Below, piece after piece: positions 1,368-21,029 of a DNA stretch of 28,810 bases (position 1 is the stretch's first letter; every line of letters starts with the position of its first letter). The notes beneath the pieces were generated by a model. The model had not been told where the DNA came from. It saw only the letters and a program-made list of their open reading frames with translations, and searched no databases. The translations under genes were made by a program, and so were the position numbers. The stretch lies in IMG/VR virus record IMGVR_UViG_3300021956_000061, positions 1 to 28,810 of that record, one strand, 5' to 3'. The stretch comes from a virus.

Positions 1368-3367
1368 TGGCAAGATTTGTCACAGTTCAGACAAACTTCA
1401 ATACTGGAGAACTTGATCCATTAATGCGCGCTAGGGTGGATCTCAAAGCATATGAAAATGCTATGGAGACTGCTACTAATGTTGTATGCCAACCACAAGG
1501 CGGAATAACAAGACGTTCTGGATTACGTTATATCAATGCATTGCCTAACAGTGGATCATCATCTGCTGCTAATGGAGTTCGTTTAGTTTCATTTGAGTTC
1601 TCAACATCAGATAGTTATATGCTTTGCTTTACACATAATCGTATGTATGTATATAAAGCTGGAGCATTGGTTACTAATATTAATTCATCTGGTAACGATT
1701 ATCTGGATACATCTAGCGTATCATTAACATCAGCTAAATTAGCTAATCTATGTTGGACACAATCTGCTGATACATTGATTGTAGTGCATGAAGATTTATC
1801 CCCAGTTAAGATTGTGCGTGGTGCATCAGATTCATCATGGACTGCATCAACTATTACATTTGATAGCACGCCAAAATATGCATTTACTTTATCAGCAAGC
1901 AGTCCATCAGCTACCTTAACTCCAACAGCTATATCTGGAAAAACAAAAGTTACTGCATCAGCAAGTGTCTTTAGTAGTGGAAATGTTGGTCAATATATTA
2001 ATGCAAATCCACAAGGAAGAGCTAAAATAGTGCAATATATATCTGGCACAGAAGTTAATGTAGTTACAGAATTTCCATTTTTTGATACTAGCGCTATTGC
2101 TTCTGGAAGCTGGGAAATAGAAAGTGGATATGAATCAGTATGGTCAAGCACAAAAGGATATCCAAGAACAGTAACTTTTCATGAAGGTCGTTTATATTTT
2201 GGTGGATCTAAGACTAGACCATCTACAGTATGGGGATCTAAAGTTGGATTGTTTTTTGACTTTGAGCCAACAGAAGGGTTAGATGATGATGCTATTGAAG
2301 CAACATTAGATACTAATACATTTAATGCTATTACAGATATTATTTCTGGTCGTGATCTTCAATTTTTTACGACTGGTGGTGAGTTCTATGCTCAACAAAG
2401 TTCACTAGAGCCTATTACACCAACTAATTTCTCAGTTAAGACAGTTAGCCGACATGGAAGCAAACCAGGTATTCGAGTTAAACAACTTGAATCTGGCACG
2501 TTATTTATTCAAAGACAAGGCAAAACACTTAATGAGTTTGCTTATTCTGATACACAAGCTACTTATTTAACATCTAAGATATCTCTATTATCTGGTCATT
2601 TACTTAAAACTCCAACAAGAATGGGTTTGCGTAAGGCTGTGGCTACTGATGAAAACGATTTATTATTGATTGTTAATAGTGGTGATGGATCTATGGTGGC
2701 ATATTCTTTACTTAGATCAGAAAATGTTATAGCACCATCTAAGTTTATTACTGGCACAGATTCATTTGTAGATGTTAGCGTTGATATTACGACTATCTAT
2801 ACTGTAGTTAAAAGAACAATATCTGGCACAGATCAATATTATGTAGAAAGATTTGATGATTCATTATTAGTAGATTCAGCAAAAATTGGTGGAGCTGCAT
2901 CGTCTGTATCTATGAGTCATCTTGTAGGAAGATCAGTTAATATTCTTCTTGATGGAACAGTGCAAGCTAATCAAACAGTGCCTAGTGGTGGCACAATAAC
3001 ATTCTCAAGATCATCTACATCAAGCTATGAATTAGGCTTGCCAATTAATGTGCAAGTGACTACAATGCCTGTAGATCTAAAAATTCAAACAGGAACTAGA
3101 TTAGGCTTTAAAAAACGTATTGTTGAAGTTAATGCTTTAGTATTAGAAACACAGAATATGGTGGTAAATGGCATTGAAGTTCCATTTAGATCATTTGATA
3201 CACCATCTATTCTTGATGCGGATATACCAGATTTTACTGGAACTAAAGTGCTTCATGGTATACTTGGATATAGCACAGATGCAAAGATTACAATTACTCA
3301 AAGTGCGCCATTAAAAATGACGTTATTGGGTATGGAATATAAAGTAGCAGTTCATCAAGGAACATAA
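1367..3367 (+). CDS. Tail nozzle protein, T7 gp12-like (tail tubular protein B)
   Basis: A 666-residue protein whose N-terminus contains the family's typical elements: F-N-x-G-E-L-D/S-P at about residues 10-17, then DLKAYENAMETATNVV and P-Q-G-G-I-T-R-R-S-G-L-R. The middle has the T-F-H-E-G-R-L-Y-F-G-G block found in this group, followed by a ring-protein beta domain. T7 gp12 is about 790 residues, so this is slightly short. It forms the distal nozzle of the tail tube and directly follows the gp11-like gene, as in T7. Confidence 0.85.
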   Translation: MARFVTVQTNFNTGELDPLMRARVDLKAYENAMETATNVVCQPQGGITRRSGLRYINALPNSGSSSAANGVRLVSFEFSTSDSYMLCFTHNRMYVYKAGALVTNINSSGNDYLDTSSVSLTSAKLANLCWTQSADTLIVVHEDLSPVKIVRGASDSSWTASTITFDSTPKYAFTLSASSPSATLTPTAISGKTKVTASASVFSSGNVGQYINANPQGRAKIVQYISGTEVNVVTEFPFFDTSAIASGSWEIESGYESVWSSTKGYPRTVTFHEGRLYFGGSKTRPSTVWGSKVGLFFDFEPTEGLDDDAIEATLDTNTFNAITDIISGRDLQFFTTGGEFYAQQSSLEPITPTNFSVKTVSRHGSKPGIRVKQLESGTLFIQRQGKTLNEFAYSDTQATYLTSKISLLSGHLLKTPTRMGLRKAVATDENDLLLIVNSGDGSMVAYSLLRSENVIAPSKFITGTDSFVDVSVDITTIYTVVKRTISGTDQYYVERFDDSLLVDSAKIGGAASSVSMSHLVGRSVNILLDGTVQANQTVPSGGTITFSRSSTSSYELGLPINVQVTTMPVDLKIQTGTRLGFKKRIVEVNALVLETQNMVVNGIEVPFRSFDTPSILDADIPDFTGTKVLHGILGYSTDAKITITQSAPLKMTLLGMEYKVAVHQGT

Positions 3368-3834: not shown

Positions 3835-5526
3835 ATGGCAGATAATATTAGATATCAGCGTTCTGGCATTATGTATGCAGAGTTTCCTACTTTGCAATAT
3901 GCTAACATTCAAGAAGAGATTAAACAAGCTAGATCACTTAATGCTAGCTTAGATCGTATTAGTGAATTTGCATATAAAGGCGCTGTTAAAAAAGCAGAAG
4001 AAGCTGGTATGCAATATGGCATTGAGAATACACCATCATTGAAACAAGTGATGGAATCTATCAAAAATAAAGAGAAACCATCTGACTTATTCCAACCATC
4101 TGATACTTATTTTGGTGAGGCTGCACGTAAGATTCAAGTGGCTACATTTAGAACAGAATTAGAAAAAGAAGCAAGAGCATCATTTACTGACATTGATGCT
4201 GTTGTTAATTCTGGCAATCCATATAATATGCAAGAGATTGACGATGAACTTAATGGTATCGTTGATGGCCATTCAAAAGTATTGGCTGGGATTGATCCAG
4301 AAGAATCAGCTAAATATAGACAATCTGTTACTATTTTAGGCAATGCTACTCGTAAGAATGCATTAGATCGCATATCTAAACGCATTGAAGCTGAAAACTT
4401 AGCTAAAGTAGACGAAGAATTAGATAATCTTAAGAAGCAAGTTCCTACACTTTTAGATACATATACTACATTTGAAGATTATAAACTCGTTGAAAAGCAA
4501 CTTAAACTATCAGTAGATGAATTAATTACACGTATTGATCCTACTAAAGTTGCAGAGAAAAAGAATGAGATCAATAAGATATTTAAGAATGCTGTAATTG
4601 ATCGTATTGGTAACTATGTATTAAAAGATAAAACATTTGCTTCTACACCAGGAGAAGCATCTATGAAGATCATGGATGGTCAAGCTGGTGATATGACTCA
4701 GTTCCTTAATGACTATGTTGCTCCAGAAGATCGCATGGAAGTTGTTAAGAAACTAACAGAGAAAAAAGTAGCTCAAAGCAATCTTATTGAGGCTAATGAA
4801 AAACTTACCAAAAAGCTAAGAGAAGATGACTATCGTATTATCATGAAAGATTTTTATGATGGTAAAGTTGGTCCGAATGAAACTATTACTGCATTGCATG
4901 CTAAAGAAATACCTATTAGCAATGATGAATATAAGTCTATTGTAACTGCACAAGATGAAACACCAGGAAATCTTGCTGAATATAATAAGATGTTTAATCG
5001 AGTTAATGTTGATCTATTAAGTGTTGGTGAGATTGATGCTGCTGCTAAAGCAAATAGAATTACATACAAACAAGCATTGCAACTTAAAGATAAATATTTT
5101 AGCAGATCAGATAATGATCGTGAGATTAAGCAAGCTGTATTAAATGCAGTTAATATTACATCAGAGCAAATGCTTATGCTTAAACCAGAACAAGATGCTG
5201 TTGTGGCTAAAAGTATTCTATCAACTACAAAAGAAGTTGAAGCATTAAGAGCTAAAGGACTTCCAGTTAATGTAGCTGAAATAGCAAGAAAAAATGCTAT
5301 TCAAATTATGGATACTAATTCTACAGAAATATATACTAAAGCTAAAGCAGATTTAGAGAAAATGTCTACTACTTATAAGTTTTTATATCAAGAAAATGCT
5401 TATAAAGCTACAGATGTGGATAAGTTATTTAAGAACATACCAAAAGAAGATAGGCGAATAATTAAACGTGCATTAAGAGATATAGATACTTATAATCAAC
5501 AACAAAAGAATAAAGCGAGCTTCTAA
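3835..5526 (+). CDS. Probable internal virion/ejection protein, T7 gp15-like by position
   Basis: A 563-residue, highly charged helical protein with long Lys/Glu-rich stretches (for example residues 180-260 and 300-345) and no membrane segment. It occupies the place of T7 gp15 between a gp14-like gene and a very large gene. In T7, gp15 and gp16 form the channel that carries DNA across the periplasm. I recognise no catalytic motif. The stop overlaps the next ATG (TAATGA). Role is inferred from order and composition. Confidence 0.6.
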   Translation: MADNIRYQRSGIMYAEFPTLQYANIQEEIKQARSLNASLDRISEFAYKGAVKKAEEAGMQYGIENTPSLKQVMESIKNKEKPSDLFQPSDTYFGEAARKIQVATFRTELEKEARASFTDIDAVVNSGNPYNMQEIDDELNGIVDGHSKVLAGIDPEESAKYRQSVTILGNATRKNALDRISKRIEAENLAKVDEELDNLKKQVPTLLDTYTTFEDYKLVEKQLKLSVDELITRIDPTKVAEKKNEINKIFKNAVIDRIGNYVLKDKTFASTPGEASMKIMDGQAGDMTQFLNDYVAPEDRMEVVKKLTEKKVAQSNLIEANEKLTKKLREDDYRIIMKDFYDGKVGPNETITALHAKEIPISNDEYKSIVTAQDETPGNLAEYNKMFNRVNVDLLSVGEIDAAAKANRITYKQALQLKDKYFSRSDNDREIKQAVLNAVNITSEQMLMLKPEQDAVVAKSILSTTKEVEALRAKGLPVNVAEIARKNAIQIMDTNSTEIYTKAKADLEKMSTTYKFLYQENAYKATDVDKLFKNIPKEDRRIIKRALRDIDTYNQQQKNKASF

Positions 5527-17729: not shown

Positions 17730-18083
17730 CTAATAGAATACATGGTTATTAATAACTGCTCTTGGTTTCATGCCCCATTGATTTGGCATGCTTACATTAT
17801 GAAAATAACTAGCACCCTTACTACTATCTTTGATCTCTTGCTTTATGATCTTCTCAGACAATAACACAAAAGGTTTAAGCTGTGAATAAGGTGGTATGTA
17901 TTTAGTCTTTTGAGTCCATTCAAATTGATCTGCCTTGAAAGTCTCTGAGCATATCTTCTTCTGATTAAAGTCAGCTCTTCGATAAAGCACATACCCTACT
18001 GCCACTTGGCCAGGGACAGGCTCGCCCCTAGCTTCGTGATACATCGTTAAACTCATACACATGACTGCTGCAACATCTAACAT
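17730..18083 (-). CDS. Cell-wall hydrolase, SleB/Hydrolase_2 family
   Basis: A 117-residue protein with the family's signature M-Y-H-E-A-R-G-E (catalytic Glu at residue 17), then P-G-Q-V-A-V-G-Y-V, a D-Q-F-E-W block and the late A-S-Y-F-H-N motif. The family cleaves peptidoglycan, in SleB as a lytic transglycosylase. No clear signal peptide is present, although the first 14 residues are fairly apolar. AAAGGAG precedes the ATG at good spacing. It is divergent from pqqA and far from the holin/endolysin cassette, so the phage has two wall-cutting enzymes in oppositely oriented operons. Confidence 0.82.
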   Translation of the reverse strand: MLDVAAVMCMSLTMYHEARGEPVPGQVAVGYVLYRRADFNQKKICSETFKADQFEWTQKTKYIPPYSQLKPFVLLSEKIIKQEIKDSSKGASYFHNVSMPNQWGMKPRAVINNHVFY

Positions 18084-18116
18084 AAAGTCTCCTTTGCTTA
18101 GGTAGCTTTCATGGTT

Positions 18117-18160
18117 TTGCGTATATACTTTCTATATACTTTTGGCATAATGAACTCACG
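18117..18160. promoter_or_regulatory. Divergent control region between hydrolase gene and pqqA
   Basis: The gap of 91 bp holds two direct copies of TATATACTTT (18122-18131 and 18133-18142), spaced 11 bp start to start, about one helical turn. A -10-like CATAAT lies at 18146-18151 on the plus strand, 24 bases before the pqqA ATG. No good plus-strand -35 is present, which would suit an activator-dependent promoter at the repeats. On the minus strand the same repeats give TATATA elements for the hydrolase gene. Function inferred from position. Confidence 0.4.
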
Positions 18161-18174
18161 AAAGGAGAACGATT

Positions 18175-18246
18175 ATGTGGACAAAACCAGCAGCTACTGA
18201 AATGCGCTTCGGCTTTGAAGTTACAATGTATGTAATGAATAAGTAA
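18175..18246 (+). CDS. pqqA: PqqA-type PQQ precursor peptide
   Basis: A 23-codon gene followed by TAA, with a strong site (AAGGAG at 18162-18167, 7 nt before the ATG). The peptide begins M-W-T-K-P-A and contains F-G-F-E15-V-T-M-Y19, matching PqqA peptides (M-W-x-K-P-A...G-x-E-V-T-x-Y), which are 22-24 residues long. In the known pathway the radical-SAM enzyme PqqE, with PqqD, links this Glu and Tyr, and the peptide is then processed into the cofactor PQQ. No pqqB, C, D or E is in the window, so host enzymes would be needed. It is on the opposite strand to its neighbours and its last 26 bases overlap the 3' end of the convergent gene. It is too short for ordinary gene callers. Confidence 0.9.
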
Positions 18247-18421
18247 GCCAAGCATACAAAGATAGAGCAATGCCTATGGAAATCCTAGTGGCTTTCCATA
18301 TGCGTTGCCTTTTCTCTTTGGGTGACTCTAATGTCACCTCGTATTCATAACCATTAAGCTCTTTAAATGAGCGTGGGAAACGCCATTCAAAAGCATTGAA
18401 GTTAGTTTTGTATTGTTTCAT
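18221..18421 (-). CDS. Small protein with C-terminal transmembrane helix
   Basis: A 66-residue protein: a hydrophilic N-terminal half ([20 protein letters not shown]), a very basic junction (KEKRQRIWK), and a membrane helix at residues 45-63 ([17 protein letters not shown]). The basic flank suggests the N-terminal half stays in the cytoplasm. It overlaps the ERF gene upstream by 20 bases and pqqA, antisense, by 26. The F-E-W-R-F-P-R-S-F element is reminiscent of small proteins in other phages, but I cannot name a function. Confidence 0.6.
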
Positions 18422-19085
18422 TTGATTTTCCTTTCACATTATTGATGCGTGTGGCTTGCTTGCCTATGTATTGCATCTTAACTGTTACTGGTAAGCGGTT
18501 TAGTGTAGGCTGGTTAGCTTCTACTAATGCTTTTAGTTTCGATATCTTATCCTCTGGGTTTAGGCTAGAATTAACTAGCTGTTCACTCATTTCATCGAAT
18601 TTTCCTTGCCATGTCAATACATCCGATAGCTCTAGTGGGTCTTTTCCTGGAATATAGAAGGTAAATCCACTAGATTGTTGCTTTTTTACAACACTCTGAG
18701 CGCTAACTGCTGCGTTCCCATCGTCATCTTCTGGTGCAATACCACAAGTAGCCATTAAAGAATAGCGTCTAGCGTAGGTTAATGCTGACCCATAACCTTG
18801 AGCATCTTGCTTAGTGGCTGGCACTTGTAGGATACCTCCAGTTAATATCTCACCACTTTCATGAATAAGAATAGTCTCTACCTTAACGCCATTATCACAC
18901 TCATGCGTTGATTGGATAAGTGCAATGCCATTGTTATTGAGCGCATCTAATACAGCTTCAATACATCCATCTAAAGACACATACTTTGATCTAAAGTGTG
19001 GGTTAGTTGATGTCTTGAGTGCTGGTGCAAATTCTTTCTGTGCTTTGACGAATGCCTTAGCAATCGCCGATACTGATTGAGTCAT
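18402..19085 (-). CDS. ERF-family single-strand annealing protein
   Basis: A 227-residue protein of the ERF family (Essential Recombination Function, P22). Diagnostic elements: an N-terminal K-A-x-x-x-A-Q-K-E-F helix, N-P-H-F-R-S-K-Y-V-S-L-D-G, a G-I-A-L-I-Q segment, and the signature Y-G-S-A-L-T-Y-A-R-R-Y-S-L followed by EDDDGN. ERF anneals complementary single strands and can circularise or concatenate phage DNA. The gene is one small gene away from a YqaJ-type exonuclease, a standard exonuclease-annealase pairing. AGGAG sits nine bases before the start. Confidence 0.92.
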   Translation of the reverse strand: MTQSVSAIAKAFVKAQKEFAPALKTSTNPHFRSKYVSLDGCIEAVLDALNNNGIALIQSTHECDNGVKVETILIHESGEILTGGILQVPATKQDAQGYGSALTYARRYSLMATCGIAPEDDDGNAAVSAQSVVKKQQSSGFTFYIPGKDPLELSDVLTWQGKFDEMSEQLVNSSLNPEDKISKLKALVEANQPTLNRLPVTVKMQYIGKQATRINNVKGKSNETIQN

Positions 19086-19218: not shown

Positions 19219-20171
19219 ATACGATCCTTTATAGAAAGTTTAGATTGTCTAATGACATAGGCTTCTTTAGCTGGCACAGTTTTTGCTGGCTGTGCTTTGT
19301 ATTGACGCATAGGCCATGAGATTTTATAACGACCAGCATTGCATACTTCTGCATCACGCATCTGTTCCATGATATTGATTTGTAAACGATCAATCGCATT
19401 CTCTAACTCCATGATTTGCTCACGAAGTTCTATGATCTTCTCAGCTTGGATCTCAATTTCTGGAATATCAATCGCACTCTTTTCAGCACGATCAAACACA
19501 CGACTCGCTTCATTGCTGCTTGATAATGGATACCAATCAATTTCTTCATTAGATTTATATTTATCTAACTTTGCTTGGAACTCTTCTACCGCTTGATGAA
19601 TCATATTCACTTGATCCTCATTGCGCTCATATAAGAATATCCTTAGTGTTGTGCCACGATATAATACACATAGCGCACCCCATTTAGCTTTCATAATATC
19701 CATTTGTCCTTGAAGTTGAATCACTCCACGATAAACCGCTGGGGTATCTTCGACATCCTGTGCAGTTAGTTTAGCCTCTAAAATACCTAATCCATCGAGC
19801 TTGATAGGCTTTGTGCCATCATTCATGACATAAATCCCATTGCCAATGTCTGTGAATATTTCAGTCCCAGCGCCTTGAGCAGTGCCATCAAGTGAGCAAG
19901 CCAAGGGTATGCTTTCATGAAAGTATGCCTCTGTGTGATCTAGATTATCAATCTCACAGCCTAAACGCTTGACAGCTTCGGCAAGGATTAACTTCTCTGT
20001 AAGATTGCCCCAGATCATTGGTTCATTCTCAATAAACTCTGGCTCAATGCCTTGATAATGATCTATGCTTTGCTTCAATTCATCATTTGGGGTTCTAAAC
20101 TTGCTAAATCCTAATAATGCTGGAAGCCTTGAGCATGACATCATGTCATTCGGCGTCAATTTCCCTACCAT
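19215..20171 (-). CDS. YqaJ-type recombination exonuclease (PD-(D/E)XK)
   Basis: A 318-residue nuclease. It shows the family order: S-C-S-R-L-P-A-L-L-G near residue 12, W-G-N-L-T-E59 (metal-binding Glu), S-L-D95-G, and G-I-L-E132-A-K134 (the ExK core). A C-terminal coiled coil (residues about 240-285) precedes a basic end. Lambda-exonuclease-like proteins of this group resect double-stranded ends and hand single strands to an annealing protein, here the nearby ERF. It overlaps the serine recombinase gene by 26 bases. Confidence 0.85.
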   Translation of the reverse strand: MVGKLTPNDMMSCSRLPALLGFSKFRTPNDELKQSIDHYQGIEPEFIENEPMIWGNLTEKLILAEAVKRLGCEIDNLDHTEAYFHESIPLACSLDGTAQGAGTEIFTDIGNGIYVMNDGTKPIKLDGLGILEAKLTAQDVEDTPAVYRGVIQLQGQMDIMKAKWGALCVLYRGTTLRIFLYERNEDQVNMIHQAVEEFQAKLDKYKSNEEIDWYPLSSSNEASRVFDRAEKSAIDIPEIEIQAEKIIELREQIMELENAIDRLQINIMEQMRDAEVCNAGRYKISWPMRQYKAQPAKTVPAKEAYVIRQSKLSIKDRI

Positions 20172-20847
20172 ATTTTCTCTCTCTTTCTTTGATTGTGTTG
20201 AAATACCATTGAACGTTAGAGCCTGTCCATTGGCGGTTAAGATAAGTCTTGATACCTAACTCATTGAGTTTCTTTGCAATGCCAGCGCATGTTGGTTTAT
20301 CCGCCTGTTGAATTGCAATATCAACCCATTGTTTAATACTTAAAGCGTATTGTGCTGTGTGATAGGCGCGTCTATTGCCACCCATAATTGAAATATCTTT
20401 TAGACGATCTCTAGGCGCCCCGAGCTTAATCCCTCGAGCCTTTGCGGCTCTCAAAGCATTCTTTGTGTTGATAGATATTTGACGCCTTGTCTCTTCATTC
20501 AATACAGCGCGAATATGTAATTCAAAGATGCTAGCTTTGGGGGTTTCAGCGATGACTAATGGCACTTTCTTTTCTAACAGCTCAGACATAAGATGCACCG
20601 AGCGCGTAAGTCTACATTGCTTAGCAACCAATAGGAATTGATCTTTTTCAAGCTCTAAAAGTGCAAGCGCCTTGAGCAGTTCGGGTCTATGATTATGAGA
20701 CCCGCTCTCGATGTCAGTATACTCGGCCACGATCTCAACGCCTTCCGCTCTTGCGTAAGCGTAGCACATTTGCTGCTGTGCTTCTAAACCTAGACCGCTT
20801 TCACATTGCTTATCAGTTGAGACGCGATAATAAGCTATAAATTTCAT
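20146..20847 (-). CDS. Serine recombinase (resolvase/invertase family)
   Basis: The start was chosen at the ATG at 20847 because MKFIAYYRVS begins the catalytic domain; it overlaps the preceding stop (ATGA). The 233-residue protein has catalytic Ser10 in Y-Y-R-V-S-T-D-K-Q, the D-I-E-S-G block, R54 in NHRPEL and R79-L-T-R82. In gamma-delta resolvase an Asp precedes the first of these arginines; here it is Cys78. The C-terminal part (CAGIAKKLNELGIKT...W-T-G-S-N-V) resembles the DNA-binding Recombinase domain of large serine integrases, shortened. It could integrate the phage, resolve multimers or invert a segment; no inverted fibre segment is seen. Confidence 0.85.
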   Translation of the reverse strand: MKFIAYYRVSTDKQCESGLGLEAQQQMCYAYARAEGVEIVAEYTDIESGSHNHRPELLKALALLELEKDQFLLVAKQCRLTRSVHLMSELLEKKVPLVIAETPKASIFELHIRAVLNEETRRQISINTKNALRAAKARGIKLGAPRDRLKDISIMGGNRRAYHTAQYALSIKQWVDIAIQQADKPTCAGIAKKLNELGIKTYLNRQWTGSNVQWYFNTIKERERKYGREIDAE

Positions 20848-21029
20848 AATAGACCCGCCAATCTCGAGGCCTCTGATTTGCAACGCTCTACAGTTTGAGC
20901 GGGTAAGCCTCGCATGAATGAATACGCCATTTCAATGCACTCGTTGGCCTTATCATTAGTTGGCGCTGTAATTGCAAGCGTTAGGGCTTGCGTTAAGAGT
21001 TCAATTTGCTGCCTTTGCGATGTATACAT
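20844..21029 (-). CDS. Small helical protein upstream of the recombinase
   Basis: A 61-residue protein, predicted all-helical (QRQQIELLTQALTLAITAPT then ANECIEMAYSFMRG), translationally coupled to the serine recombinase by an ATGA overlap. An AAAGG site and the shared leader element at 21034-21049 precede it. The LTLAITAPTNDKAxEC pattern is seen in small phage proteins of unknown role. Confidence 0.55.
   Translation of the reverse strand: MYTSQRQQIELLTQALTLAITAPTNDKANECIEMAYSFMRGLPAQTVERCKSEASRLAGLL

Follow-up and report, generated by a model that had tools for sequence, protein, structure and literature searches.

The window, by which we mean the whole stretch of 28,810 nucleotides analysed here, is an IMG/VR fragment that ends inside the major capsid protein gene on the left and the terminase gene on the right, and it carries genes for podovirus tail-tube, internal virion and lysis proteins as well as for Erf, an exonuclease, replication initiation and RusA. 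The structural genes and the terminase mark it as phage DNA, and it represents a fragment of a MEP301-like podovirus, MEP301 being the closest isolate relative by gene order. On the plus strand, at 18175–18246, lies an ATG-to-TAA frame that translates into 23 residues and encodes PqqA, the precursor peptide of PQQ. The peptide covers all 19 positions of the Pfam profile PF08042 with 42.4 bits (cut-off 21.1, E 6.4e-11) and reaches 40.4 bits against the NCBIfam equivalog TIGR02107 (cut-off 20), and by profile it is a full-length PqqA. It also possesses the E-x-x-x-Y spacing, with Glu15 and Tyr19 separated by three residues. Neither a PHROGs search nor a comparison with solved structures gave a match to this PqqA, and no second PF08042 match and no other annotated pqq gene were found in the 28.8 kb of this fragment.

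A strong ribosome-binding site (RBS), AAAGGAGA at 18161–18168, precedes the ATG by 6 nt, and a GGAGA/AAGGA motif before pqqA is conserved in relatives, phage isolates and hosts. Further upstream, a perfect 7-bp dyad (GTATATA-N5-TATATAC, GTATATACTTTCTATATAC, 18121–18139) followed by CATAAT (18146–18151) forms a tentative candidate promoter/operator at 18121–18151 on the plus strand. It is located between pqqA and the divergent gene on its left, which encodes a cell wall hydrolase (17730–18083, minus strand, PF07486 domain match), and could equally serve that gene. The exact dyad is a single site in the window and recurs in many members of the lineage, not in all. A consensus promoter scan left the candidate unscored and revealed no clear sigma-70 promoter ahead of the window pqqA, nor was a terminator scored 3' of it. 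To the right follow, all on the minus strand, the genes for an Erf-like ssDNA-annealing protein (18402–19085), a YqaJ-like exonuclease and a small serine recombinase with a resolvase domain (20146–20883), the last being conserved in MEP301 and having a PF07508 match below cut-off. An unassigned 66-codon ORF without Pfam or PHROG match (18221–18421, minus strand) appears in the ORF list and overlaps the final 26 nt of pqqA tail to tail with its 3' end. Two other readings of the locus were rejected, namely an RNA element, as there is no Rfam match in 17900–18500, and a tRNA-linked site, as there is no tRNA anywhere in the window. A first-pass annotation had proposed a 23-codon PqqA frame with a strong ribosome-binding site in a phage genome, on the strand opposite to its neighbours and with no other pqq gene. 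Translation, AAAGGAGA and both profiles confirmed the frame, the phage genes on both sides together with the structural genes and the terminase bore out the setting, the strands are as described, and the solitary position of pqqA holds within the 28.8 kb fragment.

To see how the frame behaves in related phages we fetched relatives via neighbouring genes and DNA patterns, and PqqA itself played no part in the neighbour-based choice. An intact PqqA adjoins Erf in 20 of the 20 closest Erf relatives (68–88 percent identity) and the hydrolase in all 8 hydrolase relatives, and no disabled pqqA copies were seen in the phage lineage. Among the 23 distinct copies of this neighbour-selected set pS is 0.249 and pN 0.029 (pN/pS 0.117), and the identities at the three codon positions are 0.971, 0.966 and 0.853, the third position being the one that varies. 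A wider phage set, chosen partly by the PqqA motif, gave pS 0.56 versus pN 0.08 in the sense frame, a contrast far above that in the other five frames, of which antisense frame 1 came next (pS 0.35, pN 0.11). The opposite-strand ORF was accordingly rejected as a real gene, as the antisense frames lack the strong contrast of the sense frame. The codons for Tyr19 are TAT and TAC in about equal shares. A scan with the N-terminal half alone returned at least 120 contigs, and every one of the 120 matches listed retains both Glu15 and Tyr19, while a scan with the C-terminal motif also gave at least 120 contigs, with complete PqqA peptides in all among the matches listed. Thus neither a loss of the frame in close relatives nor a change at Glu15 or Tyr19, both of which the first-pass annotation had named as signs against a PqqA gene, was seen, and purifying selection acts on the phage pqqA as a protein-coding gene.

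The peptide is present well beyond these relatives. A tblastn search of INPHARED detected PqqA in Venkman, P19250A, MEP301, MEP401, MEP402, four near-identical Melnitz genomes and one uncultured podovirus, in every case preceded by a ribosome-binding site; the taxonomy-listed Methylophilales phages MEP431-434, HIM624-A, phiMB624-A and Venkman EXVC038S were not part of this comparison. The carriers belong to T4-like phages (Kyanoviridae), Zobellviridae and unclassified podo- and siphovirus groups, and they include isolates from OM43/LD28 hosts and complete genomes of isolated phages. As the first-pass annotation had expected, gene callers miss this gene: five cultured methylophages (Venkman, P19250A, MEP301, MEP401 and MEP402) lack an annotation for it, and in Melnitz-1 and a Manatee Spring record an opposite-strand ORF, probably an artefact, is annotated over it. 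With 72 nt pqqA falls below the usual gene-caller limit of 90 nt, and auxiliary genes of such size are therefore absent from surveys.

Its presence is patchy in some groups. Venkman-like loci with a neighbouring exonuclease of at least 92 percent identity carry pqqA in 26 of 26 cases where the contig reaches far enough, whereas it is cleanly absent in two Venkman-like loci at 79 percent (L419 and L420) and is also missing from relatives at 53 percent or less. Among the loci sharing the MEP401 neighbourhood it is found in 3 of 12 and is absent in 9. Such absences suggest that pqqA is useful rather than indispensable, or that its value depends on the host. One intergenic region could be compared with the pqqA segment (L417, about 4985–5185) and without it (L420, about 5980); the segment measures somewhat less than 200 bp, and we regard it as a moron-like cassette in the Venkman-like phages. 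A TAATGTAT-like motif flanks it on both sides in L417, and these repeats suggest insertion or deletion of the segment between short repeats.

The hosts themselves are rich in this gene. PqqA is present in 149 of 150 Methylophilaceae genomes; the median copy number is 4 and the highest 12. Published work describes 3–12 pqqA copies where pqqBCDE occur only once (PMC4109929), and a strain in which two of five pqqA copies are strongly expressed (PMC9851590). Dispersed stand-alone copies also occur in Methylophilaceae hosts (PMC4109929, PMC9851590). Several copies and one enzyme set imply that the hosts themselves invest in precursor dosage. In several Methylophilaceae MAGs (e.g. L140, L143, L210, L220 and L228) two pqqA copies lie in tandem at a distance of about 200 bp and encode differing peptides, MWTQP... 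and MWTKP/MWTTP.... In the comparison with Methylophilaceae genomes that the first-pass annotation had called for, the window peptide turned out to be identical, letter for letter, to 26 host copies, one of which (L132) adjoins pqqB and pqqC. Host and window copies thus share the 23-residue peptide with Glu15 and Tyr19 and a similar RBS, and they differ in that the window copy is encoded by a phage and has no other pqq gene in its record. As its peptide equals one found beside pqqB and pqqC, host enzymes of that type presumably accept it, and acceptance by PqqD/PqqE and conversion to PQQ are likely.

At the DNA level phage and host copies resemble each other from the RBS as far as the stop codon and no further (median −11 to +72). 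The best phage–host matches lie between about 85 and 100 percent, with 86 percent for the window copy, and several phage copies are DNA-identical to host copies, which points to a recent transfer in some cases. We therefore interpret the phage pqqA as a captured host gene that diverged later and forms a stand-alone unit of RBS plus CDS.

Regarding the rest of the pathway, tblastn revealed no pqqB, C, D or E beside pqqA in 359 viral loci, and no PqqE above cut-off was present in 40 whole records. One T4-like phage record of 72,356 bp, linked to Melnitz by its ORFs, combines pqqA with a quinoprotein-associated SoxYZ-like carrier, a methanol dehydrogenase (607.9 bits) and a formate dehydrogenase alpha subunit (884.8 bits) (G162; L043 718–1950, L481 5990–10784). 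Its methanol dehydrogenase contains a WDYDG motif, which we take to be the one expected of XoxF. The gene set is an apparent viral module from methanol to CO2, and the company of both dehydrogenases ties the viral PqqA to methanol oxidation. The same record further encodes a thioredoxin and an RpoZ-like protein, the latter just under cut-off.

Taking this together, we consider it probable that the window gene works as a phage version of the host pqqA and tops up the one input of PQQ biosynthesis that is consumed stoichiometrically, which would make it an auxiliary metabolic gene. It resides in bona fide phage genomes, and its host-identical peptide and the low pN/pS of 0.117 mark it as host-derived and kept by selection. 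One PqqA is consumed for each PQQ made. During infection the phage peptide would be translated and bound by the host PqqD, the host PqqE would cross-link it at Glu15–Tyr19, and PqqF/G, PqqB and PqqC would trim and complete it to PQQ, which could then load the XoxF/MxaF methanol dehydrogenase of the host and sometimes the phage's own. As host transcription falls, shortage would threaten the precursor before any other input, because one PqqA is destroyed per PQQ and because hosts keep several pqqA genes for one enzyme set; a phage pqqA would supply it, so that virion production continues to receive energy and C1 carbon. Sustained methanol oxidation or raised PQQ in infected cells from the phage pqqA may be expected from these sequence comparisons. 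Some points weigh against precursor supply. PQQ is stable and not covalently bound, so it is uncertain whether a single infection creates a need for newly made PQQ, and the patchy presence described above, with two Venkman-like loci and 9 of 12 loci of the MEP401 neighbourhood lacking pqqA, also counts against it, as does the lack of a clear scored sigma-70 promoter ahead of the window copy.

The peptide could instead act as a regulator or competitor, e.g. by titrating the host PqqD/PqqE in order to slow methanol oxidation or by signalling the C1 status. The precursor stands alone without pathway genes and an excess of a peptide substrate could in principle saturate its chaperone, but the PQQ-forming residues, for which a pure competitor would have no need, are always kept (at least 120 contigs), and the phage pairing PqqA with methanol and formate dehydrogenase points to promotion rather than inhibition, making this reading improbable. 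We give even less credence to a chance host gene fragment carried passively or to host DNA misassembled into viral contigs: although several phage copies are DNA-identical to host copies and one record of the phage collection looks bacterial, complete genomes of isolated phages carry pqqA, and its conserved place beside Erf in the lineage goes along with purifying selection. The bacterial-looking record, Acinetobacter phage MD-2021a (CAKLQF020000010.1, L382), contains ppk and pqqBCDE like a bacterial chromosome and was excluded as a PqqA case. Finally, an attachment site (attP) or another DNA element that copies the host pqqA, the peptide being incidental, is very unlikely, for although the resolvase-type recombinase gene lies only 2 kb off and the stretch resembles a host gene, synonymous sites vary freely while the peptide stays, identity limited to RBS and CDS and usually below 100 percent (86 percent between the window and its best host match) argues against such a site, exact DNA identity across a site beside an integrase is not seen at the window stretch, the recombinase is incomplete by Pfam, no integrase is annotated near pqqA in Venkman, P19250A or MEP401/402, and a functional serine recombinase in MEP301 was doubted by its authors (PMC8024684).

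Returning to precursor supply, we lean towards seeing it as a general strategy, in which unrelated phages of methylotrophs independently keep a stand-alone pqqA of less than 90 nt that pipelines miss systematically. It would span small podoviruses, siphoviruses, T4-like phages and one case of the alphaproteobacterial type, and would give viruses a common lever on methanol oxidation, a view we hold with moderate confidence. The alphaproteobacterial-type PqqA, MKWSAPIVQEVCVGMEVTSYESAEIDTFN, is encoded alone at 2715–2801 (plus strand) of a contig that has a phage DNA polymerase family (L388); no pqqBCDE was found in this locus, and a phage of a different group of methylotrophs may have acquired the gene independently. 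A search for Pseudomonas-type PqqA in viral contigs gave no matches. A known parallel is psbA, with which cyanophages bring along the fastest-spent component, the D1 protein; D1 is a protein subunit subject to turnover, whereas PqqA is a substrate consumed in the synthesis of a cofactor. In bacteria of the OM43/LD28 type methanol oxidation depends on PQQ, and it forms a considerable step of C1 turnover in aquatic habitats. Should it be routine for phages to carry the one input of PQQ that is consumed, viral control of methanol oxidation would be much commoner than the single earlier report suggests. Precursor supply can be tested at once, since cultured pairs exist (Venkman/H5P1, MEP301 and P19250A).

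The first-pass annotation was unsure about earlier reports, and phage-encoded PqqA has indeed been published: it was described in 2020 for the viral population VP_266 from Lake Baikal and predicted to support methanol oxidation in Methylophilaceae (PMC7678222), and the viral genes listed in a reservoir study likewise include pqqA (PMC13188868). VP_266 resembles the window in its phage-encoded PqqA; it is T4-like and has a methanol dehydrogenase, whereas the window is a fragment of a small podovirus with PqqA alone. MEP301 (MW452941) shares the genome plan and has pqqA at the same place beside the ERF and YqaJ genes, but there the gene is unannotated, PQQ is absent from the corresponding paper (PMC8024684) and the peptide sequence differs. 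Phage PQQ genes are also unmentioned in PMC10580990, PMC8163748 and PMC9004378. What appears to be new is the breadth among unrelated cultured methylophages, the systematic omission from annotations, the fact that small phages carry the gene in a stand-alone form, and the correction for P19250A; no earlier report of that breadth, of the stand-alone form or of the correction was found in a partial coverage of the literature, which makes this weak evidence. For P19250A it had been stated that it has none of these genes (PMC7678222). This claim needs correcting, as P19250A does encode PqqA.
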